NCBI RefSeq assembly: GCF_002797685.1
Contig: NZ_PGFH01000001.1
Span: 868,001-932,000 of the forward strand
Source of the DNA: Salinibacterium amurskyense
GTDB taxonomy: Bacteria; Actinomycetota; Actinomycetes; Actinomycetales; Microbacteriaceae
DNA: 64,000 bases
Direction of reading: 5' to 3'
The notes under the pieces were generated by a model that worked only from the letters and a program-made list of their open reading frames with translations, made no database searches and had not been told where the DNA came from. A program made the position numbers and the translations under genes. Shown piece after piece: positions 35,285 to 49,399 of this stretch (its first letter is position 1; the number at the start of each line of letters is the position of its first letter).

Positions 35285-36490
35285 ATGAATCCACAGATTA
35301 ATCCCCGCGTCGCCGTGATCCTTCTCGGCGCCGGGAATGGCACCCGCCTCGGTCGCAACGAGCCAAAAGCTTTCGTTCACTTGGCGGGTCGTCCTACTCT
35401 CAGTCGCGCCCTCGAATCCGTTTTCGGAATGGCGGAGCCGACTCAGGTAATCATCACTGTTCCGAAGTCGTATGGCCCCATCGCCAAGCAGCTCGCGCGC
35501 TCGGTCCCCGGCGGCCGTGATCGGGAGCCCGTGATTATCGTGGGCGGTTCCACGCGCCAGGAGTCTGTTGCTGAGGCCCTCAAATTTCTCGAATCGAGCA
35601 TTGACGTAGTTCTCGTGCACGACGCGGCACGTCCGCTCACGCCGAGCCTCGTCTTTGACTCGGTTGCCGCAGAAGTGCGCAGCTCGAACGCTGGTGTCGT
35701 GCCGGGCCTTCCGGTTGCCGACACGATTAAGCGTACGGATGACAACAGTCAGATCGTCGAGACCGTCGACCGTTCCGTGCTCATGGCGGTGCAAACCCCG
35801 CAGGGTTTCCCGCGTGACCAGCTCGTAGCTGCCCACGAGGCCGCTCAAGAAGAGCACACCGACGATTCAGCTTTGGTCGCGGCTGCGGGTTTCCCGGTCT
35901 CCATCATCGCGGGCGACCCCATGGCCTTCAAGATCACTACCGCGTGGGAGCTGCGTCGCGCCGAGCAGCTCTTTACCGAGTCTGCAGCCACCAGCATCCG
36001 AGTCGGTACTGGTACGGATGTGCACGCCTACGACGACACTAAGCCTCTGTGGCTTGCTGGGCTGCACTGGCCGGACGAAGTCGGCCTCCGCGGTCACAGC
36101 GATGGCGATGTTGTCGCTCACGCGATTTGCGATGCCATGCTCTCGGCCGCGAAGCTGGGCGATTTGGGCAGCGTATTCGGCACGAGCGACCCCAAGTTTG
36201 AAGATGCCCATGGTGATGTCTTCTTGCGCGAAACCCTCTTTCTCATGCGGGAAGCCGGCTTCGAAGTGGGCAACGTCTCCGTTCAGCTCATTGGAAACCA
36301 CCCGATGGTCTCGCGCCGTCGCGTAGAGGCTGAAGAGTTCTTGAGCGGGATTCTTGGAGCTTCGGTGAGCATCGCGGGCACGACCTCCGATGCGCTCGGC
36401 TTCACAGGCCGCGGCGAGGGCATGGCGGCAATCGCTACGGCACTCGTACATGCGCGCACGGTCGCCGAGGCCACTCACAACCGCGAGTAG
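35285..36490 (+). CDS. ispDF: Bifunctional IspD/IspF enzyme of the MEP isoprenoid pathway
   Basis: 401 aa fusion. Residues 1-225 are IspD (methylerythritol 4-phosphate cytidylyltransferase): ILLGAGNGTRLGRNEPKAFV, VHDAARPLTP and PVADTIKRT. Residues about 237-401 are IspF (methylerythritol cyclodiphosphate synthase): RVGTGTDVHAYD, LRGHSDGDVVAHAICDAML and GNVSVQLIGNHP. In mycobacteria the two are separate genes. It acts on 2-C-methylerythritol 4-phosphate, the same metabolite that the DRL-family enzyme 3 kb downstream would handle. TAGGCT at 35213-35218 is a candidate -10. Confidence 0.96.
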   Translation: MNPQINPRVAVILLGAGNGTRLGRNEPKAFVHLAGRPTLSRALESVFGMAEPTQVIITVPKSYGPIAKQLARSVPGGRDREPVIIVGGSTRQESVAEALKFLESSIDVVLVHDAARPLTPSLVFDSVAAEVRSSNAGVVPGLPVADTIKRTDDNSQIVETVDRSVLMAVQTPQGFPRDQLVAAHEAAQEEHTDDSALVAAAGFPVSIIAGDPMAFKITTAWELRRAEQLFTESAATSIRVGTGTDVHAYDDTKPLWLAGLHWPDEVGLRGHSDGDVVAHAICDAMLSAAKLGDLGSVFGTSDPKFEDAHGDVFLRETLFLMREAGFEVGNVSVQLIGNHPMVSRRRVEAEEFLSGILGASVSIAGTTSDALGFTGRGEGMAAIATALVHARTVAEATHNRE

Positions 36491-36810
36491 TCGCGTCGGG
36501 CGGTGCCGCGCGATCGCGCGGTTGCCCGGCGATCGACTTTTGCGCACGCCGCTGTGCCTGTTGACGCGCGGTGATTCCGCGTAGCTAATCTCCGCGTTCG
36601 AAACCAGAGCGAACCTGAGCAGTAATTTCTTTCGCTCGTGCCTTGGTCGATTGCTTGCGAGCCTGATATACCTGTTACTACACGACTGTGAGTCCGATGC
36701 TCACAATTGTGCAAATGTAGTACCAGGGTCGATGGGGACACACACCTCACGTCACGCCACCGGCCCTGACAGGCGCCGACAACGAAGTTGCGGCTGGAGA
36801 AAGGTGTGAG
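36491..36810. other. 320-bp intergenic region before the polyol PTS operon
   Basis: No supported gene. Near the ispDF end there is a 16-bp perfect palindrome CCGCGCGATCGCGCGG (36506-36521) that may be its terminator. The second half is less GC-rich and carries operator-like dyads at 36687-36711 before the srlA start at 36811. Confidence 0.6.
36687..36711. promoter_or_regulatory. Candidate operator upstream of the glucitol-type PTS
   Basis: Inverted repeat TGTGAG-N7-CTCACA (36687-36705) overlaps the palindrome CACAATTGTG (36702-36711), about 100 bp before srlA. The half-sites resemble CRP or GntR-type sites, but the spacing differs from the CRP consensus. The binding protein is unknown. Confidence 0.5.
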
Positions 36811-37518
36811 ATGCAATCTGTTCTGGACACGATAATTTGGGCGGCTGATTCGCCGCCAGTACCGGCCAGCGACAACCCGATCATTCAGGCCCTCACCTGG
36901 GGTGCTACGCACTTCATTGGCCTGTTCAACGCATCGGGTGAAGCTCTCGTTGGTCTCGCAACCGGCATCCTGCCGACGCTGATCGTGCTGCTTACGTTTA
37001 TGTACGCGATCACCACCTGGGTGGGCGAAGCACGCATGACCCGCGCAGTACAGTGGTCAGCTCGTTGGGCCATTACTCGCTACACCCTCATGCCCATCAT
37101 CGCGGTCATCGTCTTGACCAACCCGATGGCGTACTCCTTCGGCATCTATCTACCCGAACGACAGAAGCCGGCGTTCTACGACTCTGCAGTGTCATTCGTG
37201 CACCCTGTCACCGCCTTCTTCCCGCACGCTAACGCCGGCGAGATCTTTGTCTGGGCTGGTGTCTCGGCTGGAGTGCTCTCCATCGCTCCCGAAAAGTACC
37301 CGCTGCTCGCGCTGCTGTACTTCGGTACCGGCATCGTCGTTATCTTTATTCGCGGAATCGTCACCGAGTGGATCACCAAGCTGCTCATCCGTCGCCAGGG
37401 TCTCACGGCCGTATTCGACGAGTACGACCGCGAGTTCGCGCGTGCAAGCGAGCGTTTCATCGAGGCAAAGTCGACCAAGAAAACCGGATCCTCGGTTTCC
37501 ACTGAAGGGGCGGTGTGA
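36811..37518 (+). CDS. srlA: PTS glucitol/sorbitol-type IIC subunit
   Basis: 235-aa membrane component of a glucitol-family PTS permease. Family features are VSFVHPVTAFFPHANAGEIFVW in the second half and the three to four hydrophobic helices before it (ILPTLIVLLTFMYAITTWVG). The C-terminal tail is charged and cytoplasmic. SD GAAAGG precedes ATG 36811. It overlaps no gene but srlE follows 2 bases on. No sorbitol-6-phosphate dehydrogenase gene is near, so the substrate may not be sorbitol. Confidence 0.93.
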   Translation: MQSVLDTIIWAADSPPVPASDNPIIQALTWGATHFIGLFNASGEALVGLATGILPTLIVLLTFMYAITTWVGEARMTRAVQWSARWAITRYTLMPIIAVIVLTNPMAYSFGIYLPERQKPAFYDSAVSFVHPVTAFFPHANAGEIFVWAGVSAGVLSIAPEKYPLLALLYFGTGIVVIFIRGIVTEWITKLLIRRQGLTAVFDEYDREFARASERFIEAKSTKKTGSSVSTEGAV

Positions 37519-37520
37519 TC

Positions 37521-38576
37521 ATGAGCGAGAACACCTACAGAAACGTATTCGTCAAGCCCGGTAACGGCGGTTGGGGCAAGGGTCTCCTCCTCGAGCCGAG
37601 CGCAGAAAAGAACGTCGTTCTCTCGGTAACCGGTGGCGGAATCCACCCGGTCGCTGCGCGGATCGCCGAGCTCACTGGTGCAGAAGCTGTTGACGGCTTC
37701 ACCAACAGCATTCCCGAAGAGCGCGTTGTCGCTGTCGTGATCAACTGTGGTGGAACTGCCCGCATCGGCGTCTACCCCAAGAAGCGCATGATGACCGTCG
37801 ACGTCTTCCCCGGAGAGCCCTCGGGCCCCCTCGCGAAGTACATCACCGACGACGTCTTCGTTTCCGCTGTCGGCACTGACAACGTTGAGCTCGTTGATGG
37901 TGAGCACGCCTTCGCGACTCACGCCGCTGAGGCATCCGCTGCATCCGAAGCTGCTATCGGCAGCCCGGCCCCCTCGGGAGCCTTCGGTACGAGCAACGTT
38001 CAGCACTTCACCGCTGAGACGACAACCGGTGGCGGCTTCATCGGCTTCTTCTCGAATACGGCAACGCGCTTCGGTTCGGTTATCGGAAACATCATCAACA
38101 CACTGCTCTCGTCTGGTCGCCAGACGGTTCAGCTCGTGCTGCAGACGATCCTGCCGTTCATGGCCTATGTGAGCCTCTTGATCGGTTTCGTCACCTACTC
38201 GGGACTCTCGGATCTCATTGCGCAAGCAGTGACTCCGTTGGCCTCGAACCCGATCGGACTGATCCTGCTTGGTGTGATCACGGGACTACCGTTCCTGTCG
38301 CCCATTCTGGGACCGGGCGCGGCTATCGCTCAGGTCGTCGGTGTACTCATGGGTACACAGATCGCCGCTGGCGCACTGCCGGTGCAGTACGCACTGCCGA
38401 CGCTGTTCGCCATCAACGGTCAGGTTGGTTGTGACTTCGTTCCCGTGGGCCTCGCCCTGGGAGAAGCCAAGCCGGAGACGGTTGCAGTGGGTGTACCCGC
38501 TGTGCTCTTCTCTCGCCTGATCACGTCACCGCTGGCAGTCTTGATCGCGTGGGGCGCAAGCTTCGCGCTGATCTAA
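37521..38576 (+). CDS. srlE: PTS glucitol/sorbitol-type IIBC subunit
   Basis: 351 aa. The N-terminal IIB domain (to about residue 150) has VTGGGIHPVAARIAELTG and the phosphocysteine candidate Cys76 in AVVINCGGTARIGVYP; after a linker of about 40 residues the membrane domain begins (LQTILPFMAYVSLLIGFVTYSG, GLPFLSPILGPGAAIAQ, GQVGCDFVPVGLALGEAKPE). ATG 37521 is chosen over GTG 37515, which overlaps the srlA stop. Receives phosphate from the IIA subunit and gives it to the incoming polyol. Confidence 0.93.
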   Translation: MSENTYRNVFVKPGNGGWGKGLLLEPSAEKNVVLSVTGGGIHPVAARIAELTGAEAVDGFTNSIPEERVVAVVINCGGTARIGVYPKKRMMTVDVFPGEPSGPLAKYITDDVFVSAVGTDNVELVDGEHAFATHAAEASAASEAAIGSPAPSGAFGTSNVQHFTAETTTGGGFIGFFSNTATRFGSVIGNIINTLLSSGRQTVQLVLQTILPFMAYVSLLIGFVTYSGLSDLIAQAVTPLASNPIGLILLGVITGLPFLSPILGPGAAIAQVVGVLMGTQIAAGALPVQYALPTLFAINGQVGCDFVPVGLALGEAKPETVAVGVPAVLFSRLITSPLAVLIAWGASFALI

Positions 38577-38630
38577 GCACCACCGCCAGTACAACCACCA
38601 CACGCAACAGCAGAGAAAAGCGAGACAGCA

Positions 38631-39005
38631 ATGACTACCTATTACCGCAGCGAGGTCACGTCCATCGGAACGGACGCCACCGAAATGTTCGACGGAGGAG
38701 TGGTGATCTTCTTCGGAGAACCCTGCCCCGCCGAACTGGCTGAGGTAAGTGTCGTTCACACTGTCACGCACCACCACCCGCAGCGCGATCCCCAGCCGGG
38801 AGACGTGCTGCGGGTGGGGGACTCTGAAGTCACCATTACGGAGGTCGGCGAGATTGCGGCCAACAACCTCCGCACGCTCGGCCACTTCGTGGTCTACAGC
38901 GACCCAGAAGACAGCCAGAAGATTCTCCCCGGCGCCATTCACGCGAAGGGCACGCTATCGCTGCCCGACGCCGGCGTCACCATTGAGCTCATCGAAGGTA
39001 GTTGA
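38631..39005 (+). CDS. srlB: PTS glucitol/sorbitol-type IIA subunit
   Basis: 124-aa soluble IIA(Gut)-family protein. The phosphorylated histidine is probably His43 in SVVHTVTHHHPQ. Other family segments are MFDGGVVIFFGEPCP, ITEVGEIAANNLRTLGH and the closing LPDAGVTIELIE. Accepts phosphate from HPr, a gene for which lies 5 kb downstream. Gap of 54 bases after srlE; gutM begins 2 bases after its stop. Confidence 0.93.
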   Translation: MTTYYRSEVTSIGTDATEMFDGGVVIFFGEPCPAELAEVSVVHTVTHHHPQRDPQPGDVLRVGDSEVTITEVGEIAANNLRTLGHFVVYSDPEDSQKILPGAIHAKGTLSLPDAGVTIELIEGS

Positions 39006-39006
39006 C

Positions 39007-39408
39007 ATGGATACCGGCTTCGCACTACTGCTGATCGCAGCGCTCGTTCTGAGCGTTGTGTTTAGCCTCCTCCAACAGCGCACGTACTCGCGTGCCACCA
39101 AGCGACTCGGAACAAGCTTCATCGGCGCGAAAGACCATTTCTTGGTCTCGGGCCGCGGCAAGCACTTCCTCCGCGGCGCCATCGTTCTCCTGGTCGTTGA
39201 TGCCTCAACGAGCCGCATAGTGGCCGCCGAGGCCATGGTCGGCAGCACCGTTCTCGCGCGCTTCAAGCCGCGCCCCGAGCTAATCGGTGATCTCGACACC
39301 GCAACGCTGCGCACCAAAGAGAAGATGATGACCGCAGCCGTGGACTACGCCACCAAGCAGTACTGGGTGACGTACAAGCGCAACGTCGCAGCGGCAGCCC
39401 GCAAGTAG
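39007..39408 (+). CDS. gutM: GutM-family glucitol operon activator
   Basis: 133 aa with an N-terminal membrane helix (ALLLIAALVLSVVFSLLQQR), then the GutM core (ATKRLGTSFIGAKDHFLVSGRG, VVDASTSRIVAAEAM) and a basic C-terminus. GutM activates the glucitol operon in enterobacteria; here its small size and membrane helix suggest a membrane-tethered accessory. Longer in-frame readings overlap srlB and are shadows. Confidence 0.85.
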   Translation: MDTGFALLLIAALVLSVVFSLLQQRTYSRATKRLGTSFIGAKDHFLVSGRGKHFLRGAIVLLVVDASTSRIVAAEAMVGSTVLARFKPRPELIGDLDTATLRTKEKMMTAAVDYATKQYWVTYKRNVAAAARK

Positions 39409-39535
39409 CGACATCACTCGTTCGGGTGTTTCGGCATTCGACATTGCATCGTCGTTCCCGGCGGGGCATACTAAATACACATACTTGATTAACAAGCGCA
39501 CATAAGTGCATCAACGTGGTTTCAAAGGGGTAGTC

Positions 39536-40861
39536 ATGGGTTACACAAACAAACTGCTTGCGCGTCAGCGTGAGGTCGGTCGTCCCGTTCGTATCGGTCT
39601 CGTCGGCGCAGGCCAGATGGGCTCCGGCTTCATCGCCCAGATCGCTCGCCAAAAGGGCGTCGACATCACCGCCGTCGCCGACATTGCAATTGACCGTGCC
39701 GTAGGTGCTCTCGCTAACGCCGGCATCACCGACGTCGACCAGTCAGCAGACCTCGAGACGCTCGCCGCCACGATCGAAGCCGGCGGCCACGTTGTCGTCA
39801 ACGACGCTCTCGCCCTTCCGAAGCTCCCCATCGACATGGTCATCGAGTGCTCGGGTGTTCCCGAGATCGCCGCCAAGGTTGCCCTCGCGTCGCTGCTCGG
39901 TGGCAAGGATGTCGCCCTCATGACCGTAGAAGCTGACGTTACCGTCGGTCTCCTCCTGGCTCGCATCGCCGCTCAGACCGGCAACATCTACACGGTCTGC
40001 CGTGGCGATGAGCCCGTTGAGTGCCTCAAGCTCGTCGAGTACGTCGAAGACATCGGTCTCGACGTTGTTCTCGCCGGTAAGGGCAAGAACAACCCCCTCA
40101 ACGAGACGGCTACCCCCAGCAGCCTCGAAGAAGAAGCAAAGACCAAGGGCATGAACCCGCGGATGCTGTGCAGCTTCGTCGACGGAACCAAGACCATGAT
40201 TGAGATGGCTGCCCTCGCTAACGCGGCCGACCTCGAGCTCACGAAGCGTTCGATGCACGGACCGGCCGCAACGGTGCCGACGCTGCAGGACATCTTCAAG
40301 CCCATCGAAGACGGTGGAATCCTCGACCGCAGCGGTGTTGTCGACTACGCCACTGGCCCGGTTGCGCCCGGTGTGTTCGTTGTTGCTAAGGCAACCGACC
40401 CCGTTGTGCACGAGGAGCTCAGCTACCTCAAGCTCGGTGAAGGCCCCTACTTCGCGTTCTACCGTCCGTACCACCTCGCGAGCGTCGAGGCAGTGCTCTC
40501 GATCGGTGAGGTCATGATCGACCGCCAGCCGTCGCTTGCTCCGATCGCCTGGAACGCAGACGTTTCTGCCATGGCTAAGCGCGACCTCAAGGTCGGCGAA
40601 AAGATTGACGGCATCGGTGGCGAGCACGTCTACGGTGACGCCGTTCCGGCAGCCGAGGCCAAGGCTGGTCGCGAACTGCCCATCGGTCTGGCATCGGCCG
40701 GCACGCTCATCCGCGATGTCGCCAAGGGAACTGCCGTCACGTACGACGACGTGCAGCTCGACGAAACCAAGACCATCGTGATTTTGCGCAAGCTGCAGGA
40801 TGCCCTTCTGGCCGATGGCCAGTTGCAGGTTCCCGCTCTCGCTTCGCTGCTCTCCGCCTAA
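39536..40861 (+). CDS. DXR-II/DRL-family oxidoreductase with SAF domain
   Basis: 441 aa from ATG 39536 (SD AAAGGGG). Rossmann motif GLVGAGQMG (residues 24-29 for GAGQMG), then EADVTVG, RGDEPVECLKLVEYVE, AGKGKNNPLNETATP, SFVDGTKTMIEMAALANA, MHGP, GVVDYATGPVAPGVFVVA and GPYFAFYRPYHLASVEAV; a SAF domain covers about residues 340-425 (LKVGEKIDGIGGEHVYGDA). This set of blocks matches the DRL (DXR type II) family, whose Brucella member reversibly links 1-deoxyxylulose 5-phosphate and methylerythritol 4-phosphate. In this polyol-PTS operon followed by acetoin-type E1 genes, it more likely oxidises a polyol phosphate catabolically. Family identity is strong; substrate is inferred. Confidence 0.85.
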   Translation: MGYTNKLLARQREVGRPVRIGLVGAGQMGSGFIAQIARQKGVDITAVADIAIDRAVGALANAGITDVDQSADLETLAATIEAGGHVVVNDALALPKLPIDMVIECSGVPEIAAKVALASLLGGKDVALMTVEADVTVGLLLARIAAQTGNIYTVCRGDEPVECLKLVEYVEDIGLDVVLAGKGKNNPLNETATPSSLEEEAKTKGMNPRMLCSFVDGTKTMIEMAALANAADLELTKRSMHGPAATVPTLQDIFKPIEDGGILDRSGVVDYATGPVAPGVFVVAKATDPVVHEELSYLKLGEGPYFAFYRPYHLASVEAVLSIGEVMIDRQPSLAPIAWNADVSAMAKRDLKVGEKIDGIGGEHVYGDAVPAAEAKAGRELPIGLASAGTLIRDVAKGTAVTYDDVQLDETKTIVILRKLQDALLADGQLQVPALASLLSA

Positions 40862-40875
40862 GAAAGGTGACAACT

Positions 40876-41850
40876 ATGAATACGCAGATCGTTGCGAACC
40901 GCGAACTCGCGGCAGCCAGCCTCGCCACCATGTGGAAGATCCGCCGCTTCGAAGAAGCAGTGGAAGACCTCTACGGCCGTGGATTGATGCACGGCACGAT
41001 GCACCTCTCGATCGGTCAAGAGGCCGTACCGACCGGTGCATGCCTCGCCCTCAACAAGGACGACTACATCACCTCGACGCACCGTGGCCACGGCCACTGC
41101 ATCGCCAAGGGCGCCGACATGGAGCGCATGATGGCCGAGCTTCTCGCGAAAGAGACTGGCTACTGCCGCGGTCGCGGTGGTTCGATGCACATTGCGGATA
41201 CCGCAACCGGAAACCTCGGTGCCAACGGCATCGTGGCTGGTGGCGTTCCGATCGCTACCGGCGCAGCGCTGTCGGCGAAGATGCGCGGCACCAAGCAGGT
41301 TGCTGTCAGCTTCCACGGCGACGGTGCGATGGGTGAGGGTGCCTGGCACGAGGGCGTTGTGCTCGCGGCAATGTGGCAGCTTCCCGTGGTGTTCCTGTGC
41401 GAAAACAACCTCTACGGCATGTCAATGTCGTCAGAGAAGGCCTTCAATCTCGACCAGCTTTCTGACCGTGCGAAGGGCTACGGCATCCCCGGAGTGACCG
41501 TTGACGGTAACGATGTTCAGGCTGTCTACGACGCCACGAAGGAAGCGGTTGACCGCGCTCGTGCCGGTGGCGGACCGACCTTCATCGAAGCGAAGACGTA
41601 CCGCTGGCGCGGTCACTCGAAGTCGGACAAGAACCTGTACCGCACTCGCGACGAGATCGATGAGTGGCGCGGCAAGGACCCGATTCCGCTGTTCGAAGCT
41701 CAGGCTCTCGCCGCCGGTGGCCTCACGCAGGCTGACATCGATGCCGTTCGCGACAACGTGCGCACCGAACTGCGCAGTGCCGTTCAGCGCGCCAACGCTG
41801 CGCCGGACGCCACCGCTGACGACCTTCTTTCCGCCGTCTACGCAAGGTAA
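40876..41850 (+). CDS. Acetoin-dehydrogenase-type E1 component, alpha subunit
   Basis: 324 aa, thiamine-diphosphate-dependent. The TPP motif is intact: GDG (148-150) through NN (177-178). The blocks [48 protein letters not shown] and [20 protein letters not shown] match AcoA of acetoin dehydrogenases better than pyruvate dehydrogenase E1. Such E1s cleave alpha-hydroxy-methylketones and pass the acetyl group to a lipoyl E2. ATG 40876 is used with SD AAAGG (40863-40867); an earlier GTG at 40867 overlaps that SD. Confidence 0.9.
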
Positions 41851-41855
41851 CGACT

Positions 41856-42890
41856 ATGACTATTGAGACGACCGCGGCACAGACCGCAGCGCCCGCGACG
41901 GGCGAAACCGTAACCATGACCTACTCCGAGGCTGTTCGCGACGCTATGCGTATCGCGATGGCCAAGGACCCTGCCGTCTTCATCATGGGTGAAGACGTCG
42001 GAACGTACGGCGGCGCCTTCGGTGTCACCGGCGAGCTCATCAACGAGATCGGCCCCGACCGCGTTCGCGACACCACCATCAGCGAGCTCGGCATCATGGG
42101 CGCCGGTGTCGGTGCCGCGATGACGGGCATGCGCCCGATCGTCGAGATTCAGTTCTCTGACTTCACGGCTCAGGCCATGGACCAGATCGCTAACCAGGCA
42201 GCGAAGATTCACTTCATGCTCGGTGGCGCAGTGAACGTTCCGATGGTTATCCGCGCGCCGGGTGGTTCGGGAACGGGTGCTGCCGCGCAGCACTCCCAGA
42301 GCCTCGAAGCCTGGTTTGTTCACATCCCCGGTCTCAAGGTTGTTATGCCGGCAACGGCGGATGACGCCAAGGGCTTGCTGCTCTCGGCCATCGACGATCC
42401 CAACCCCGTCATGGTCATCGAGCACAAGCTGCTCTACAAGACCTCGGGCGAGGTTCGCACGGGCGACATCCGCACGCCGCTTGGCGTCGCTGCGGTTCCC
42501 CGCGAAGGCAAGGACCTCACGATCATCGCCACGGGTGTTGAAGTGAGCCGCGCGCTCGAAGCAGCTGAGATTCTTGCGGCCGACGGCATCGAAGCGACCG
42601 TGGTCGACCCGCGCACGCTCAAGCCGCTCGACAGCGACACCATCCTGCGCACCGTCAAGGCCACGGGCCGCGTTCTGCTCGTGCAGGAAGCGGTGCGTAC
42701 ACTCGGCTTCATGTCTGAAGTGTCTGCCATCATTTCCGAATCGGATGCCTTCGGCTACCTTCGCGCGCCGATCAAGCGTCTTGCTGGCCTCGACATCCCG
42801 ATCCCGTACGCTCCCAAGCTCGAGCGCGCTTCGGTGCCGCAGGTCGAAGACATCGTTGCGGCGGCCACTGATCTCGTTCGGAAGTGGTGA
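41856..42890 (+). CDS. Acetoin-dehydrogenase-type E1 component, beta subunit
   Basis: 344 aa. Transketolase-like pyrimidine domain with [14 protein letters not shown], then [20 protein letters not shown] and [14 protein letters not shown]-terminal domain with [19 protein letters not shown] and [14 protein letters not shown]. Pairs with the alpha subunit 5 bases upstream to form the TPP site. First 20 residues are a short Thr/Ala tail that precedes the family core. Confidence 0.9.
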
Positions 42891-42891
42891 C

Positions 42892-44178
42892 ATGTCTGAG
42901 CTGCCTCTGACAATGCCCAAGATGTCCATGACCATGGAAGAGGGCACCATGGTCGCGTGGCTCAAGCAGGAGGGTGACTCGGTTCGTTCCGGGGAACCAA
43001 TCTGTGAGGTCGCGACCGACAAGGTTGACATGGAAGTGGAGTCGCCCTTCGACGGCGTACTCGCTCGCATCATCGCCCAGCCCGATGAGGTGTACGCGGT
43101 GGGAGACACCATCGCTTTCATCACGACAGAGGCCGATGACCTGCTCGGTGGACTCTTTGACGAGCCCGCCGCTGACGCTCCCGCTGCTGCTCCGGCCGCT
43201 GCGGAAGTAGCTCCGGCTGCCGTTCCTGCCCCCATCGAGACCGGGTGGATCCCCGCTGTTCCGGCCGCTCGCGGTGCCGCCGCCGAACACGGCGTTGACC
43301 TCTCGTCGGTCACGCCGACCGGGCCGGACAACACCGTTCGTTTGTCGGATGTTGAAGCAGCTGCTGCAGGAACCTCCGCAGCGTCTGCTGCTGTTCCGGT
43401 CGCGGCTCCTGCTGCACCGGCCGCGCCTGCTGCTCCTGCTGCGGTAGCGCCTGCTGCTCCTGCAGCTGCCGCTGCCGCTCCTGCTCCCGCTGCCGCTGCA
43501 CCGGCCAAGGCAGTTGACCCGGTAGAAGCTCGCCGCCTGCGCACCCGCAAGCAAGTTGCCAAGGTGATGACGGCATCCGCTCTCGTTCCGCAGTTCACTG
43601 CCTATGTTGACCTTGACCTGTCAGCCTTGGCTGCCGTGCGCAAAACCACACTCGGTGGCGCTAGCTGGACCGCACTCTTTGTGCGGGCTCAAGCGATCGC
43701 TCTGGCCGAGAACGCTGCGCTCAATGGCACCTGGACTGATGAGGGAGTCGTCGCCAACGAGCACATCGGGATCGCCCTCGCGATCGATTCGCCATCGGGG
43801 CTGCTCGCGCCGGTGCTGAAGAACTCGCACGAGGGAACACTTGCTGAGCTGGTCGCTGAGATCGCCGGTGTCGTAGACGAGACGCGCAAGGGCACTCTGC
43901 CGCCCGCGCGACTCGGCGGCGGAACAAGCGTATTCTCGAACCTGGGCGGATTCGGCGTGGAATCGTTCAACGCACTATTGACCCCACCGCAGTCGACGGC
44001 TCTGTCGTCGGGCGCCGTCAAGCCACGCATGCGCGTGTTCGACGACGAGACCTTCGGTGTGCGGTTGAGCTGCACGATCGGTCTCACCGTCGATCACCGT
44101 GTAGCGGATGGTGCTGATGCCGCACGCATGCTCGCGACCATCACGAACCTCGTCGCGAATCCGGAGCGTTTGCTCTAG
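42892..44178 (+). CDS. Lipoyl-bearing E2 acyltransferase
   Basis: 428 aa. Lipoyl domain at 1-80 with acceptor Lys44 in EVATDKVDMEVES; peripheral subunit-binding domain at about 112-150 (IPAVPAARGAAAEHGVDLSS); a long Ala/Pro linker at about 155-205; and the catalytic domain from about 215 with DHRVADGADAARM (His402, Asp406). The active-site DHR-x(2)-DG signature is kept (V to A at one place). Takes the acyl group from E1 and gives it to CoA. No E3 (lipoamide dehydrogenase) gene follows, so E3 must come from elsewhere. ATG directly follows the E1 beta stop by one base. Confidence 0.9.
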   Translation: MSELPLTMPKMSMTMEEGTMVAWLKQEGDSVRSGEPICEVATDKVDMEVESPFDGVLARIIAQPDEVYAVGDTIAFITTEADDLLGGLFDEPAADAPAAAPAAAEVAPAAVPAPIETGWIPAVPAARGAAAEHGVDLSSVTPTGPDNTVRLSDVEAAAAGTSAASAAVPVAAPAAPAAPAAPAAVAPAAPAAAAAAPAPAAAAPAKAVDPVEARRLRTRKQVAKVMTASALVPQFTAYVDLDLSALAAVRKTTLGGASWTALFVRAQAIALAENAALNGTWTDEGVVANEHIGIALAIDSPSGLLAPVLKNSHEGTLAELVAEIAGVVDETRKGTLPPARLGGGTSVFSNLGGFGVESFNALLTPPQSTALSSGAVKPRMRVFDDETFGVRLSCTIGLTVDHRVADGADAARMLATITNLVANPERLL

Positions 44179-44256
44179 AGCCGCAACCCGCCCGCGGGTT
44201 CTCCTAGCCGCGTTCCTCAAGGGGCGCAGTCCACCACGTTTCGAAACAGGTACACA

Positions 44257-44514
44257 ATGTCAGAACGCACAGCCACAATCGTTTCCCCCTCGGGCCTTCA
44301 CGCTCGCCCCGCTGCACTCTTCACGCAGGCGGTCAGCAAGAGCGGCTTGAAGATCACCGTTGCTAAGGATGGCAAGGCTGTTAACGCCGCCAGCATCCTC
44401 GCCGTGATTTCGCTCGGAGTCTCTCAGGGCGAAACCGTCACGCTGGCTTCCGACGATGAGGGCGCTGACACTGTGCTCGACGAGCTCGCAGAACTGCTCG
44501 CTACCGTCGAATAG
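44257..44514 (+). CDS. ptsH: HPr phosphocarrier protein
   Basis: 85 aa. Phosphorylation site His15 in SPSGLHARPAALF and the regulatory Ser46 in AASILAVISLG are both conserved. Supplies phosphate to the IIA subunits of the two PTS systems in this region. Enzyme I is not in the window. Located at the end of the E1/E2 genes and followed by a hairpin. Confidence 0.95.
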   Translation: MSERTATIVSPSGLHARPAALFTQAVSKSGLKITVAKDGKAVNAASILAVISLGVSQGETVTLASDDEGADTVLDELAELLATVE

Positions 44515-44524
44515 TAATCACCGC

Positions 44525-44556
44525 AGAAGGCCCGCACCGATTGGTGCGGGCCTTCT
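44525..44556 (+). terminator. Terminator after HPr
   Basis: Perfect 14-bp stem (AGAAGGCCCGCACC and complement) with GATT loop; the T tract is short. Confidence 0.75.
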
Positions 44557-44870: not shown

Positions 44871-46307
44871 TTAGGCCTTAGCTGCTTCTTCGTCGGATGC
44901 TGCTGCGGCATCCGCTTCGACCTGAGCACGCACGATGTCGCGCTTCTTTTCGAGGCGGCTCACCCAGTAGGCGAATCCGAGGGAGAGCACGGCGAGGACC
45001 GCGATGGTCCAGCCGCCGAGGTTTGCTACTCCGAAGAACAGACCGGTGAGGGGGTTTGCTCCGTCAACGAGCGACGAGATGAGCTGCGAACCCTGCGTGT
45101 CGCTGAAGCCCGAGGCTTCGGCGATGGCCGTGAACTGCGGTGCGGTTGCGGTGGCGATGAAGAGGCCGATCGCAATAACTATGGCGCCACCGATGACGGA
45201 GCGCACGATGTTTCCGCGGAAGATTGGAACCATCATGGCCACGATGAACGGCAGCGTGGCGAGGTCAACGAGCGGCAGCACCTGGTTGCCGAGCGGAGCA
45301 AGGGCAATAGCGATCAGCACGGTAACCGGAACCAGTACGAGCGACGTCGCGAGCACAGCGGGCTGTCCTACTGCGATCGCGGTGTCGAGACCGATGTAGA
45401 ACTTGCGACCGGGGAAACGCTTCTGAACGAACTCGCGAGCGGAGTCGGAGACCGGGATGAGGCCTTCCATGAGGATCGAGACCATGCGCGGCAGAAGCAG
45501 CAGTACGGCAGCGAGGCTGATGGCGAGGACGAGGATCGCGATGGAGTCTTCGCGCGGGTTGTCGAAACCGAAGCCGGCGAGACCGATGATGATTCCGAGT
45601 ACGAGACCCAAGATCATCGATTCACCGAAGACACCGAAGCGCTTCTCGATGGTCTGCGGGTCTGCCTTCAGGTTGCGGAAGCCGGGGATGCGGTCGAAGA
45701 CCCAGTTGAAGGGGATCGCGAACAGAATGTACGGCGCGCTGGTTCCGTGGGGGAACGAGATGTCGGGGAAGTTGAAGTACTTCTGAATCATCGGTGCCGA
45801 GAGGTCGGCGAGAGCCAGAACGATCACCATGTGCACGGCGGCCGCGGCGATACCGATCCAGAAGTTATCGGTGACGGCTCCGACAAGAGCGCCAACGAGG
45901 GCGAAGTGCCAGAAGTTCCACAGGTCAATGTTGAACGTGCGGGTGAGGCCCGACCACAGCAGCAACATGTTGACGAGGATGCCGACAGGAATAATCACCG
46001 CCCCGATGGTGGATCCAAAGGCGATGGCCGCGCTCGCGGGCCAGCCCACATCGAGAACCGTGAGGTTCACGCCGAGGTTCACGGCGAGGGCCTGAGCGGC
46101 GGGACCAACGGTGCCGGCCATGAGCCCGATCACGAGGTTGATACCGATGAAGCCAATACCGATCAGCACACCAGCACGCAGTGCCTGGCTGAACTTTTGG
46201 CCAAGGATCATGCCGAAGATCGTGATGAGGATCGGCAGGGTAACGGAGGCTCCGAGAGCCGTGAGGTAGCTGGTGATATTTGTCAAAATATCTTCAATAA
46301 TGTTCAA
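44871..46307 (-). CDS. gatC: PTS galactitol-type IIC subunit
   Basis: 478-aa polytopic permease of the GatC family: VTLPILITIFGMILGQKFSQAL, ALRAGVLIGIGFIGINLVIGLM, GWPASAAIAFGSTIGAVIIPVG and the loop NIDLWNFWHFALVGALVG. It lies 129 bases after the IIB gene on the same strand, with an imperfect hairpin at 46351-46379 in between. Its real substrate may be another polyol. The C-terminal tail is Ala/Glu-rich and charged. Confidence 0.9.
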   Translation of the reverse strand: MNIIEDILTNITSYLTALGASVTLPILITIFGMILGQKFSQALRAGVLIGIGFIGINLVIGLMAGTVGPAAQALAVNLGVNLTVLDVGWPASAAIAFGSTIGAVIIPVGILVNMLLLWSGLTRTFNIDLWNFWHFALVGALVGAVTDNFWIGIAAAAVHMVIVLALADLSAPMIQKYFNFPDISFPHGTSAPYILFAIPFNWVFDRIPGFRNLKADPQTIEKRFGVFGESMILGLVLGIIIGLAGFGFDNPREDSIAILVLAISLAAVLLLLPRMVSILMEGLIPVSDSAREFVQKRFPGRKFYIGLDTAIAVGQPAVLATSLVLVPVTVLIAIALAPLGNQVLPLVDLATLPFIVAMMVPIFRGNIVRSVIGGAIVIAIGLFIATATAPQFTAIAEASGFSDTQGSQLISSLVDGANPLTGLFFGVANLGGWTIAVLAVLSLGFAYWVSRLEKKRDIVRAQVEADAAAASDEEAAKA

Positions 46308-46436: not shown

Positions 46437-46718
46437 TTAGGCGAACTGCTGCTCGATTTCGGCGAATACCTTGTCGAGGCCCATTCCGGTGAGGAAGGGG
46501 AGCCCGGCGATGACCGGGATGCCGACGGAATCGGGCACTTGGGTGGTGGCCACGATGAAGTCTGCGTCGAGGTTGCCGCGCAGAGTGTCGGCTACTTTGC
46601 CCTGAGTGATCTTGGCGTCGAGTCCTTTGGATTCGCAGAAAGTGCGAATCTTAGTGACGACCACAGTGGATGTTGCGACTCCAGTGCCGCAGATCACGAG
46701 GATGCGTTTTGTGGCCAT
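46437..46718 (-). CDS. gatB: PTS galactitol/lactose-type IIB subunit
   Basis: 93 aa from ATG 46718. P-loop-like phosphocysteine motif ILVICGTGVATSTVV, with Cys9 or so as the phosphoacceptor. DADFIVATTQVPDSVGIPV and GLPFLTGMG are family segments. Longer in-frame extension to 46865 would overlap the divergent IIA start and is a shadow. Confidence 0.88.
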   Translation of the reverse strand: MATKRILVICGTGVATSTVVVTKIRTFCESKGLDAKITQGKVADTLRGNLDADFIVATTQVPDSVGIPVIAGLPFLTGMGLDKVFAEIEQQFA

Positions 46719-46767
46719 TTTCAATACTCCAATGTATTCGCGGGGCGATAGCTTCGTGACAATTATG

Positions 46768-46788
46768 CACCTTTGATATACAAATGTG
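46768..46788. promoter_or_regulatory. Candidate operator between divergent galactitol-type PTS genes
   Basis: Inverted repeat CACCTTTG-ATATA-CAAATGTG (one mismatch in the arms) in the 122-bp region between IIB and IIA. AT-rich for this genome, with TTTTTTTGAC nearby. The SorC-family regulator encoded 0.6 kb away is the obvious candidate to bind it. Confidence 0.55.
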
Positions 46789-46840
46789 TACACGGCAACA
46801 TTTTTTTGACTAACACCTGCGCCCAGAAGGACGAGAAACC

Positions 46841-47329
46841 ATGAGTGAGACCCCCACAGCAGCACCCGTCGTGCCCCGCGCCGACCTCAGCATTGTGGGG
46901 CTTGTGGCAGGCAACAGCACCGAAGTGCTCTCCGCTTTCGCACAGCAGGCTCTCGCGGTTGGTGCCGTGCACCCCAGTTACGAGGCAGCGCTTCTTGAGC
47001 GCGAACTCGCCTTCCCCACTGGTCTACCCACGGTCATCCCGGTGGCAATTCCCCATGCTGATGTCGAGCACGCCATCGAATCAGGGCTCGGAATCGCCAC
47101 CCTCGCGCAGCCCGTCGAATTCGGTGAAATGGGCGGAGCGGACTCGACCGTGGCTGCTCGCGTGGCCGTTCTCATCCTCGTGACTGAACCGCATGCGCAA
47201 GCAGAAATGCTGTCGCAACTCATCGGGGTCTTCCAGCTCGACGGCTGGCACGACACTCTAAGCGCCGCGACAACGCCAGAAGAGCTCGCGGCAACCTTCG
47301 CCGACCTTCTCGCTTCCGCCGCCGAGTAG
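46841..47329 (+). CDS. PTS sugar transporter IIA subunit (fructose/galactitol-type)
   Basis: 162 aa. The phosphohistidine is likely His72 in VAIPHADVEHA; VAVLILVTEPHAQAEMLSQL and the repeat of AATFADLL at the end are EIIA(Fru/Mtl/Gat)-like. SD AGAAGGACGAG precedes the ATG. It is divergent from the IIB-IIC pair but belongs to the same PTS. Confidence 0.88.
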   Translation: MSETPTAAPVVPRADLSIVGLVAGNSTEVLSAFAQQALAVGAVHPSYEAALLERELAFPTGLPTVIPVAIPHADVEHAIESGLGIATLAQPVEFGEMGGADSTVAARVAVLILVTEPHAQAEMLSQLIGVFQLDGWHDTLSAATTPEELAATFADLLASAAE

Positions 47330-47393: not shown

Positions 47394-48320
47394 CTAGCGC
47401 TGGTCGAGCAGGGCTAGTGCGAGATCAGAGTCAACGACGAGCACGTCAAAGAGCCCGCCGGTGAGCGCCGCGTGTGTACCTTCAAGCTTGTGCGCTCCCG
47501 CAGCAACGCCCACCACGGTGGGAATGCTTCCGAGTTCGTCAAGGTCGATCGCGATCACACGGTCATTGACGACAGACTCCACAAGTTTTCCCTCGTGGTC
47601 GAAGAAGCGCGTGCAGCAGTCACCCACTGCTCCGGATGCTGCGAACTCGCTGCGTTCGGTGCGGCTGAGGTTCATCGACTCGATGATGGCGCTTGACGCG
47701 CCCTTGCCCACGTTTCCGACTCCGACGATCGCAATCTTCGCGCGCCGAGAAGCATTGAGCACGCCCGTAATCGAGGGCTCCCGCAGGAACGCCTCGCGGG
47801 ATTCGAGCGATTCGACAACTGCGGGCGCGTACAGACGGCGGTGTTGGGCTCCGAGCTTGGTGGCCAAAAGGCGCACCAAAACGTTGCCGTCGCGAGCGGA
47901 GTCCACGATGGAAAGCCCGCCCACGAGGGGGAGTACTTCGATGTTCTCGTGGGAGGCGTCATCCGGAATCTCGTCGACGACAGCCTGAACGCTGGAGCCC
48001 CAGGAGAGAGCCACGCCACCATCGCGGGGCAAGTTGTCGATGAGCCACTGCGCGCCGAGCGCGCCGACGCGGGAAAGCTGGTTGTCAGATCCGGTGCTGG
48101 GGGCAACGCGGCATTCGCGCAGTCCGTAGCGAGCAACGAGCTGTGCTTCGAGGTCTTGAGCGCGACCGAAGGGGTCGTTGATGCGGATTTCAACAATGCC
48201 GTTCTTGCGGGCATCAGCGAGAACGCGAGACACGTTCGATCGCGAGACGCCGATCTCTTGAGCGACTTCGGCTTGTGATTTGCCCTCGAGGTAATAGAGA
48301 GTGGCTGCTTTCACAAGCAT
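47394..48320 (-). CDS. SorC-family sugar-binding transcriptional regulator
   Basis: 308 aa. N-terminal helix-turn-helix: LYYLEGKSQAEVAQEIGVSR then SNVSRVLADARKNGIVEIRI; the sugar-binding domain has ALSWGSSVQAVVDEIP, VLPLVGG, APAVVES and AIVGVGNVGKGASS. Reading back from ATG 48320 there are only 13 more codons before an in-frame stop and no SD, so the start is fixed. Probably responds to a sugar phosphate and controls the PTS genes and the divergent dehydrogenase. Confidence 0.9.
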   Translation of the reverse strand: MLVKAATLYYLEGKSQAEVAQEIGVSRSNVSRVLADARKNGIVEIRINDPFGRAQDLEAQLVARYGLRECRVAPSTGSDNQLSRVGALGAQWLIDNLPRDGGVALSWGSSVQAVVDEIPDDASHENIEVLPLVGGLSIVDSARDGNVLVRLLATKLGAQHRRLYAPAVVESLESREAFLREPSITGVLNASRRAKIAIVGVGNVGKGASSAIIESMNLSRTERSEFAASGAVGDCCTRFFDHEGKLVESVVNDRVIAIDLDELGSIPTVVGVAAGAHKLEGTHAALTGGLFDVLVVDSDLALALLDQR

Positions 48321-48538: not shown

Positions 48539-49399
48539 ATGACAAACATTCAGCGTGTAACAGTTTTGGGCACAGGCGTGCTCGGATCACAGATTGCTTT
48601 CCAAACGGCGTACAGCGGTTTCGACGTTGTCGCCTACGACATTAACGATGACGCTCTCGATAAGGCTCGCGAGCGTTTCAACGGACTTGTCGACACCTAC
48701 ATTGCCGACGGAGTAGACGGCGCAGCCGATGGCAAAGCGAAGGACGCACTCACTCGCGTGCGCTTCTCGGCTGACCTCGGCGATGCTGTTGCCGAAGCAG
48801 ACCTCGTGATCGAGGCGATCCCCGAAATTCTCGACCTCAAGAAGTCCACCTACGCCGAGCTGGGAAAGCTCGCCCCCGAACACACGATTTTCGCCACGAA
48901 CTCCTCCACTCTGTTGCCGAGCGACATGAAGGAATCGACCGGTCGCGTCGATAAGTTCCTGGCGCTTCACTTCGCTAACCAGATCTGGAAGTTCAACACT
49001 GCCGAGATCATGGGTACGAGTGACACCGACCCCGCCGTCTTTGATGCGGTCGTGGAATTCTCGAAGGCCATTGGCATGGTGGCGATCCCGATTCACAAGG
49101 AGAAGGCCGGCTACGTTCTCAATTCGCTGCTCGTGCCGTTCCTTAACGCGGCAGCCGAGCTCGGTGCCGAGGGCTACGCAGAACCTGCTGACGTGGACAA
49201 CACCTGGCGCATTGCGACTGGCGCTCCCATGGGGCCGTTCCAGATCTTCGACGTGATCGGTCTCACGACCCCGTACAACATCATGTCTCACGGTGACGAG
49301 AAGACGCAGAAGTTTGCCGAATGGCTCAAGACCGAATACATCGACAAGGGCTACCTCGGAGTCGCATCCGGGCGTGGTTTCTACACCTACACGAAGTAA
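48539..49399 (+). CDS. 3-hydroxyacyl-CoA dehydrogenase-like NAD-dependent enzyme
   Basis: 286 aa. N-terminal NAD-binding domain with GTGVLGSQIAFQTA (GxGxxG), the catalytic region NSSTLLPSDM and His in ALHFANQIWKF; C-terminal domain with EKAGYVLNSLLVPFLNAA and GAPMGPFQIFDVIGL. The family includes L-3-hydroxybutyryl-CoA dehydrogenases and L-gulonate 3-dehydrogenase, so a polyol or aldonate substrate is also possible in this context. SD GAGAAAGAAGG lies before the ATG. Divergent from the SorC regulator. No thiolase or crotonase is near. Confidence 0.85.
   Translation: MTNIQRVTVLGTGVLGSQIAFQTAYSGFDVVAYDINDDALDKARERFNGLVDTYIADGVDGAADGKAKDALTRVRFSADLGDAVAEADLVIEAIPEILDLKKSTYAELGKLAPEHTIFATNSSTLLPSDMKESTGRVDKFLALHFANQIWKFNTAEIMGTSDTDPAVFDAVVEFSKAIGMVAIPIHKEKAGYVLNSLLVPFLNAAAELGAEGYAEPADVDNTWRIATGAPMGPFQIFDVIGLTTPYNIMSHGDEKTQKFAEWLKTEYIDKGYLGVASGRGFYTYTK

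Follow-up and report, generated by a model that had tools for sequence, protein, structure and literature searches.

A candidate catabolic route for methylerythritol through a glucitol-type phosphotransferase system, a DXR-II-family oxidoreductase and a pyruvate dehydrogenase-like complex in Salinibacterium amurskyense

Which compound is taken up and broken down by a gene unit in which a sugar-alcohol transporter is joined to an oxidoreductase of the DRL/DXR-II family and to a dehydrogenase complex with a lipoyl subunit? This question is raised by positions 36811-44514 of a 64,000-nucleotide stretch of DNA (the window; contig NZ_PGFH01000001.1, positions 868,001 to 932,000) from the 2.78 Mb genome of Salinibacterium amurskyense. 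The unit encodes a glucitol-type phosphotransferase system (PTS), the DRL oxidoreductase, E1 alpha, E1 beta and E2 subunits resembling those of pyruvate dehydrogenase (PDH), and HPr. Judged from sequence comparisons, these genes most likely form a route from methylerythritol via methylerythritol 4-phosphate (MEP) and 1-deoxyxylulose 5-phosphate (DXP) to acetyl-CoA and glyceraldehyde 3-phosphate, to which we assign a probability of roughly 0.64. The whole route is rated this close to its single steps since these are not independent of one another.

The nine reading frames are all open, lie only on the + strand and are separated by intergenic gaps of 1-127 bases. In 5' to 3' order (srlA, srlE, srlB, gutM, DRL, E1 alpha, E1 beta, E2, HPr) they are:

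36811..37518, + strand: srlA-like IIC component of a glucitol-family PTS (Pfam EII-GUT, 210.6 bits; NF049923 over its cut-off)
37521..38576, + strand: srlE-like PTS IIBC component (EIIBC-GUT_N and EIIBC-GUT_C; NF049924 over its cut-off)
38631..39005, + strand: srlB-like PTS IIA component (PTSIIA_gutA, 90.9 bits; NCBIfam gutA models matched under their cut-off)
39007..39408, + strand: GutM (Pfam GutM, 50 bits; ATG at 39007)
39536..40861, + strand: DRL/DXR-II oxidoreductase (DRL_cat, 215 bits with a cut-off of 27; Brucella structure 3upl, E 2e-101)
40876..41850, + strand: E1 alpha of a PDH-like complex (E1_dh, 298.6 bits; Thr44 and Ser251-Lys252-Ser253)
41856..42890, + strand: E1 beta (Transket_pyr and Transketolase_C; falls with the DRL-linked E1 beta group)
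42892..44178, + strand: E2 (Biotin_lipoyl, E3_binding and 2-oxoacid_dh domains)
44257..44514, + strand: HPr, the last gene of the unit (PTS-HPr, 86.8 bits)

The likely starts of srlE, GutM, DRL, E1 alpha and E2 (37521, 39007, 39536, 40876 and 42892) were read from the sequence; the srlE frame is listed from a GTG at 37515 but starts more probably with the ATG at 37521. The glucitol-type PTS is complete, IIC, IIBC and IIA all exceeding the Pfam cut-offs, and the NCBIfam equivalog models for srlA and srlE are passed while those for IIA are matched under cut-off. E1 alpha and beta together with an E2 carrying lipoyl, E3-binding and catalytic domains show the make-up of a 2-oxoacid dehydrogenase-type complex. 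A preliminary description of this locus had proposed a one-strand, short-gap unit of Gut-PTS, DRL, E1, E2 and HPr, with which reading frames and Pfam matches agree, and the lack of a sorbitol-6-phosphate dehydrogenase, which was likewise borne out among the ten proteins scanned at the locus, the rest of the genome not being searched. Of the E1/E2/E3 route described there, E1 and E2 stand in the unit, whereas E3 is not in the cluster; Lpd-family proteins, the best of them 37% identical to Priestia LpdA, were found elsewhere in the genome. A long G+C hairpin follows HPr at about 44525-44556, seen by eye and not listed by the terminator scan, and the promoter scan gave no promoter-like match upstream of srlA.

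In the proposed route the glucitol-type PTS would import and phosphorylate 2-C-methyl-D-erythritol or a close stereoisomer, yielding MEP, which DRL would oxidise and rearrange to DXP with NAD(P)+, i.e., in the reverse direction of isoprenoid synthesis. The E1, dependent on thiamine diphosphate (TPP), would then cut DXP between C2 and C3 and free glyceraldehyde 3-phosphate; the two-carbon unit would pass to the lipoyl-E2 and leave as acetyl-CoA, and the E3 (dihydrolipoyl dehydrogenase) encoded elsewhere would restore the lipoate with NAD+. The equilibrium of the DXR reaction lies toward MEP, and the irreversible cleavage step would pull the oxidation of MEP.

The preliminary description had named conserved co-occurrence of the PTS-Gut, DRL and E1 genes beforehand as one finding whose lack would refute the route, and this co-occurrence proved to be strongly conserved. 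In a scan of named genomes, 80 DRL loci, the top of at least 570 when ranked by similarity to the window DRL and many of them mutually related, were set against 31 DLO loci, all drawn from a single bacterial family and in part from shared genomes (loci and genomes are given by our own L and G numbers where needed). PTS genes were found at 55 of the 80 DRL loci, E1 alpha with E1 beta at 51 and either at 63. When the 29 loci with less than 5 kb on one side were left out, PTS genes were present at 41 of the remaining 51, E1 alpha with E1 beta at 38, both at 36 and either at 43, compared with 0/31 (PTS) and 1/31 (E1) among the DLO loci. The Fisher values for DRL versus DLO (PTS, 6e-14; E1, 5e-11; IspD/IspF matches, discussed below, 8e-7) overstate independence because many of the loci are relatives. 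Within the host's family, DRL_cat is carried by 52/249 sampled genomes; 40 neighbourhoods divide into 31 DLO loci and nine DXR-II-like loci (at least 46% identical to the window's, rounded); at the latter the Gut-PTS adjoins in 8/9, the contig ending at the ninth, and E1 alpha, E1 beta and E2 are present in 7/9.

The module spans at least five phyla in variable gene order. Next to the PTS-DRL-E1 order of the window, E1-SorC-PTS-DRL is found in L041, L042, L112 and L128, the PTS is inverted in L093, and E1 is divergent in L130 and L168, suggesting that the linkage outlasted rearrangement. On a Priestia plasmid (L081) a transporter of the RbtT/DalT type (major facilitator superfamily, MFS) and an FGGY kinase take the place of the PTS and E3 is included, and plasmids of Rhizobium and Pseudoroseomonas carry Gut-PTS, DRL, E1 alpha, E1 beta and E2 along with enzyme I and a second PTS. 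An Aminobacter record shows DRL-E1 alpha-E1 beta-E2 without a PTS, and records of Listeria innocua, Ligilactobacillus and Phyllobacterium show DRL without E1. As a separate observation, genes for thiC, an FAD oxidoreductase, thiS and thiazole synthase lie 3' of the Rhizobium module (L084, 15789-19263); DXP is a thiazole precursor too, and E1 needs TPP.

The assignment of the oxidoreductase to the DRL/DXR-II family, already made in the preliminary description, is upheld by structure match, tree position and a diagnostic residue. Residues 12-439 align with the Brucella DRL structures 3upl/3upy (E 2e-101), and the protein is 39-43% identical to most alphaproteobacterial DXR-II rows seen; an identity of about 40% to solved DRL proteins leaves no doubt about the fold. 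Salinibacterium sp. SWN167 (L089) has a DRL that is 100% identical to that of the window (tblastn). In a tree made without the published DXR-II reference sequences the window DRL falls inside a DXR-II clade of 94 rows, which is split with a branch support of 100 from 9 DLO rows; in the trees and in the residue counts these nine come from the host's family alone, and some rows represent one genome twice (L046/L093, L047/L095). Thr229, according to a survey from 2013 absolutely conserved in DXR-II (PMC3847144, here and below cited in part), is present in the window DRL, in 88/95 DXR-II rows and in 0/9 DLO rows. Lys191, Lys193 and Arg320 are found in the window and in 95/95 DXR-II rows, yet also in 9/9 DLO rows, and are not diagnostic.

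Members of DXR-II were shown to rescue DXR-deficient E. coli (PMC3847144). A requirement for DRL in isoprenoid synthesis was considered in 45 DRL genomes, hand-chosen from the loci; several are metagenome bins, which makes single absences weak. DXR-I was found in 24, IspG in 36 and both in 24, and 12 carry IspG without DXR-I (seven actinobacterial bins, two Bacillota and three alphaproteobacteria), making DRL a candidate DXR there. In two actinobacterial bins (L117, L120) an IspD-like gene follows DRL and an IspF-like gene faces it, canonical DXR was not found in the genome, and DXR-II-based MEP synthesis is probable.

Genes for MEP-consuming enzymes also occur near DRL. An IspD- or IspF-like match, counted whether canonical or not and in some cases an ordinary ispDF, lies within the flanks (about 10 kb) at 24/51 full-flank DRL loci versus 0/31 DLO loci. 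About 30 loci have an in-cluster match to IspD; ten of these IspD-like proteins were chosen for comparison, and all score best with the ispD model (140-188 bits, versus 70-103 bits for ribitol-5-phosphate cytidylyltransferase); the ispD cut-off of 181.3 is passed by two of them and the ribitol-5-phosphate cytidylyltransferase cut-off by none. Two actinobacterial bins (G270, G273) have no strong IspD apart from the one in the cluster. These neighbours point to MEP as the metabolite, and ribitol 5-phosphate was rejected because the in-cluster proteins favour the ispD model. Based on the published complementation, which includes a Chloroflexus relative (PMC3847144), the genomes with DRL as the only candidate DXR found and the IspD/IspF neighbours, it is very likely that the window DRL works on MEP and DXP, as had been proposed for it.

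The same evidence bears on two other substrates. DRL might be a plain pentitol-phosphate dehydrogenase, an ordinary pentitol being taken up by the Gut-PTS and oxidised to a pentulose 5-phosphate, which transketolase would use or E1/E2 would split into glycolyl-CoA and glyceraldehyde 3-phosphate. This would fit the Gut-PTS and the RbtT/DalT-type MFS transporter, both from pentitol/hexitol transporter families, as well as one variant cluster with transketolase and FSA; it is unlikely, since DXR-II members can stand in for DXR in a mutant (PMC3847144), 12/45 genomes would have no DXR, IspD and IspF are neighbours, and an ordinary pentulose phosphate should need no dedicated PDH-like complex. Another branched polyol such as apiitol could undergo the same rearrangement with CH2OH in place of CH3, resulting in xylulose 5-phosphate. 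Here the chemistry is identical and the product would suit the transketolase variant (L083), but relatives accept DXP by the published complementation, the in-cluster IspD-like proteins resemble MEP cytidylyltransferase, and an E1/E2 forming an acyl-CoA is best explained by an acetyl unit, making this quite unlikely. Uptake of methylerythritol by the PTS is considered fairly likely.

Does the module serve synthesis or breakdown? The host genome has canonical DXR, DXS and IspG and, by this gene content, DRL is not needed there for isoprenoids. Moreover, DXR-I and IspG were both not found in 9/45 DRL genomes, in which IspD matches were only short and weak or lacking, none being full-length. The nine, some of them incomplete bins, were searched for DXR-I, IspG, IspD and HMG-CoA synthase; in each of them DRL is accompanied by the Gut-PTS, and in six by E1 as well, suggesting MEP without an evident isoprenoid use. 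One is Terrimesophilobacter mesophilus (L095), with the gene order of the window and a DRL 74% identical to its own. HMG-CoA synthase exceeds its cut-off in five of these genomes, matches below it in a sixth and was not found in the other three, so that their isoprenoid route is not fully shown.

A related case is Chloroflexus aurantiacus, which is classed as using the mevalonate route only and whose DXR-II rescues DXR-deficient E. coli (PMC3847144). In a genome taken to be that of this species, DRL (L203) sits with SorC, E1 alpha, E1 beta, E2, srlA, srlE, srlB and an enzyme I-like gene. This DRL is the genome's best match to 15/15 DXR-II queries, with a lead of over 50 bits, and is the one of three homologues that keeps the GKGKNN motif and Thr229, so that the gene that rescued E. 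coli in print appears, by these matches, to be the one in the module. IspG was not found in the C. aurantiacus genome, nor in two further genomes of the same order (L204, L205), which carry DXR-II, Gut-PTS, E1 alpha, E1 beta and E2. If L203 is the gene tested, DXR activity was shown for a module DRL in an organism without a synthetic use for it. A divergent DRL-like protein of C. aurantiacus without the DXR-II motifs (L206, G317:C1:1699801-1701900) sits on a long branch near DXR-II when full reading frames are used, its placement being unsure.

Isoprenoid synthesis as the module's general role was rejected in view of the nine module genomes without the tested MEP markers. In that account DRL would be a second DXR, or the PTS would salvage methylerythritol as MEP for IspD. 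It draws on the ispDF gene adjoining the window unit, on the IspD/IspF flanks at 24/51 loci and on the 12/45 genomes with DRL as the sole candidate DXR found, and salvage could run alongside catabolism. It is nevertheless very unlikely, given the 9/45 PTS-DRL genomes without IspG, DXR-I or a full-length IspD match, the module in C. aurantiacus and two genomes of its order in which IspG was not found, and an E1/E2 that would have no role in synthesis. A catabolic role of the module, as first proposed, is supported by the host's own DXR, DXS and IspG and by these nine genomes, and on this gene content we hold it with high confidence.

The remaining step concerns E1/E2. The preliminary description had called the E1 'AcoAB-type', i.e., an acetoin dehydrogenase, which is only roughly right. 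True acetoin-operon E1 beta proteins (L174, L175, L177) fall outside the DRL-linked E1 beta group in the trees, and the DRL-linked E1 alpha proteins (numbered from the GTG at 40867) have Thr44 where acetoin enzymes have Phe and Ser251-Lys252-Ser253 in place of Phe-Glu-Gly, Lys252 being present in 92% of 61 rows. A true acetoin dehydrogenase was rejected on these two grounds. In the alignment Ser251 lines up with the human PDH site, which we take to be the regulatory serine beside the entrance of the channel. By trees and residues the E1 is a separate, mostly DRL-linked group: among the 34 top-ranked plasmid records with E1 beta (58-63% identical), DRL lies within 10 kb in 33 and within 2.5 kb in 32. 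In the first E1 beta tree two host proteins (L008, L009) were placed within this group, but their branch is very long and the fork from which it springs has no support; the second tree leaves out L008, L009, L010 and L048. Besides the window's genes, the host has two E1 beta (42-43% identical), a fused E1 alpha-beta, two transketolases and a 2-oxoglutarate dehydrogenase. The fused gene (L010, 292-2493) lies elsewhere in the genome and encodes 734 aa.

The closest solved relatives of the window E1 are PDH E1 enzymes, and E1 beta also matches DXS structures. In E. coli, DXP can be supplied by mutants of PDH E1, and 1-deoxyxylulose is a product of the purified PDH (PMC3424233, cited in part), which sets a precedent, in reverse, for the E1 step. 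Action of E1/E2 on DXP is likely. An ordinary pyruvate or acetoin dehydrogenase standing next to DRL by chance would agree with the kinship to PDH E1, but the linkage to DRL (38/51 versus 1/31 DLO), the separation from true acetoin E1 beta and the group-specific E1 alpha residues make it highly improbable. Acetoin dehydrogenase (AcoABC) and PDH share with the proposed DXP-cleaving complex E1 alpha, E1 beta, a lipoyl E2, a separate E3 and TPP chemistry on an acetyl unit; the window E1 differs in its distance from acetoin E1 in the trees, in its near-channel residues and in its proposed sugar-phosphate substrate. DXS acts on the same bond in the opposite direction, synthesising from pyruvate by decarboxylation, whereas the window E1 would cleave oxidatively to acetyl-CoA.

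Several observations weigh against the route or its generality. Eight of the 51 full-flank DRL loci have neither PTS nor E1, seven of them alphaproteobacterial; two of these seven (L140, L149) were tested and have IspG without DXR-I, so that DRL is probably biosynthetic there. Some variant clusters lack E1/E2 and instead carry class II aldolase and TIM-like genes (L049, 13116-14726; L050, L105, L107, L116) or FSA and transketolase (L083, 13913-16572), and L082 has neither set. These replacements suggest that the DRL product does not meet the same fate everywhere and is perhaps not DXP in every case; homologues of class II aldolase occur near 7/31 DLO loci too, and the aldolase link may be unrelated to DRL. 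Within the window DRL, Gly121, named as a radical DXR-II-specific site (PMC3847144), is replaced by Ala, and Glu174 (Lys) and Phe178 (Tyr) also depart from the DXR-II consensus. At position 121 the DXR-II rows have Gly in 73/95 and Ala in 22/95 and all nine DLO rows have Gly, so the site does not part the sets as printed. DRL is missing from at least two genomes of the same genus as the host. The 60 DRL-linked E1 beta rows do not form one clade in free trees; when they are held as a clade this is not rejected (approximately unbiased (AU) test, p 0.28), and with the Clostridioides difficile plasmid locus L169 added the likelihood is better than that of the free search (AU p 0.68). That Lys252 could contact the substrate phosphate is a guess from the alignment, and the sequence does not fix the substrate of the PTS. 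Apart from these variants, an FSA-type aldolase was seen near PTS and DRL in L146 and L148.

The proposed route can be compared to known systems. The glucitol/sorbitol PTS operon of E. coli consists of srlAEB and gutM and thereby shares IIC, IIBC, IIA and GutM with the window unit, which differs in having DRL and E1/E2 instead of sorbitol-6-phosphate dehydrogenase and a SorC-type regulator nearby. In the catabolism of AI-2 (LsrK, LsrG, LsrF) a phosphorylated C5 methyl compound is split to acetyl-CoA and triose phosphate. The likeness extends to the LsrR-like model matched by the window regulator; however, LsrF is not a lipoyl complex and the AI-2 path is without DXR chemistry. The DXR-II/DRL enzymes of Brucella and Chloroflexus (PMC3847144) share the clade, the catalytic lysines and the Thr229/Arg320 equivalents with the window enzyme, which is proposed to convert MEP to DXP in catabolism, set among PTS and E1/E2. 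The main text of PMC3847144, the part cited here, makes no mention of PTS, transport or catabolism, and the survey left the oddity of DXR-II open in the cases of Finegoldia and Chloroflexus. In the open-access literature no account of a breakdown of methylerythritol or deoxyxylulose was found, subscription papers lying mostly outside the scope; the component families are known, whereas we know of no earlier report of the route or of the proposed E1 reaction.

In the DRL tree PTS or E1 contexts occur throughout the DXR-II clade with at least eight changes, a distribution that fits a catabolic origin and does not prove it. Catabolism might be a widespread and possibly the original function of DXR-II, its biosynthetic use being borrowed where canonical DXR is missing. 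The combination of a PDH-like complex cleaving DXP, two PTS arms, a DXR-II that was first catabolic and then recruited for isoprenoids, and a wider group of sugar-E1/E2 systems (Shinella, Clostridioides) is tentative, and we give it somewhat less than even odds. If the route is true, DXR-II would have a purpose in bacteria with canonical DXR or without any MEP pathway, lipoyl complexes would gain a carbon-cleaving reaction on a sugar phosphate, and annotation as DXR-II or IspD-like would alone be no proof of an isoprenoid gene. Soil, water and plant-associated bacteria would be tied to methylerythritol and methyltetrols from plants and isoprene chemistry; 2-methyltetrols are emitted by forests, formed from isoprene and present in forest air, and some isomers are plant products (PMC11868990, cited in part).

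The genes flanking the unit, of which the ispDF neighbour was absent from the preliminary description, are:

35285..36490, + strand: ispDF fusion for MEP-consuming enzymes (IspD, 195.8 bits; YgbB, 167.7 bits)
44871..46307, - strand: galactitol-type PTS IIC, possible second entry arm (EIIC-GAT, 445 bits, under the cut-off of 542)
46437..46865, - strand: presumed PTS IIB of the second arm (reading frame; homologues found with gatC; true start probably further in)
46841..47329, + strand: presumed PTS IIA of the second arm (reading frame; homologues found with gatC)
47394..48320, - strand: sugar-binding regulator of the SorC/DeoR type, a candidate for control of the module (NF053881, 206 bits, under the cut-off of 420; second match, an LsrR-like regulator model)

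The unit begins 320 bases 3' of ispDF. A SorC-type gene was found in the flanks examined at 56/80 DRL loci and a gatC-like gene at 11/80 (9/51 with full flanks). A galactitol-type (Gat) PTS also occurs with E1 at loci without DRL in the sequence fetched: a Rhizobium plasmid (L216, 1-11312; 17 kb fetched) carries Gat-type PTS, enzyme I, SorC, E1 alpha, E1 beta and E2, and the C. difficile plasmid (L169, 8008-18586; 19 kb fetched) carries SorC, E1 alpha, E1 beta, E2, E3 and Gat-type PTS. These gene sets suggest a Gat arm whose product, a ketose phosphate, can enter E1 directly. By analogy the window may also use a Gat arm, which might bring 1-deoxyxylulose straight to the same E1, this being the weaker part of the proposal.

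Upstream of srlA an inverted repeat CCTGTTACTACA / TGTAGTACCAGG has its arms at 36671-36682 / 36716-36727. It resembles a regulator site, but a pattern search gave 3 matches with 1.25 expected and a scan of the region upstream of srlA in 14 relatives did not show the pair to be kept, so no such claim is made. Two further plasmid loci carry E1 genes in other company. On a Shinella plasmid (L217, 2033-12972) genes for E1 alpha, E1 beta, a transaldolase-family protein, E2, LpdA, a class II aldolase, a HAD protein and a TIM-like protein stand together and form one more E1 complex linked to sugar genes, and on a Sinorhizobium meliloti plasmid (L170, 1970-6954) an ABC transporter, E1 alpha, E1 beta and an FGGY-type kinase were found, with no DRL in the 7 kb fetched. 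Past the regulator in the window, a 3-hydroxyacyl-CoA dehydrogenase-like gene lies at 48539-49399, and a homologue occupies the same position in L043 and L044.

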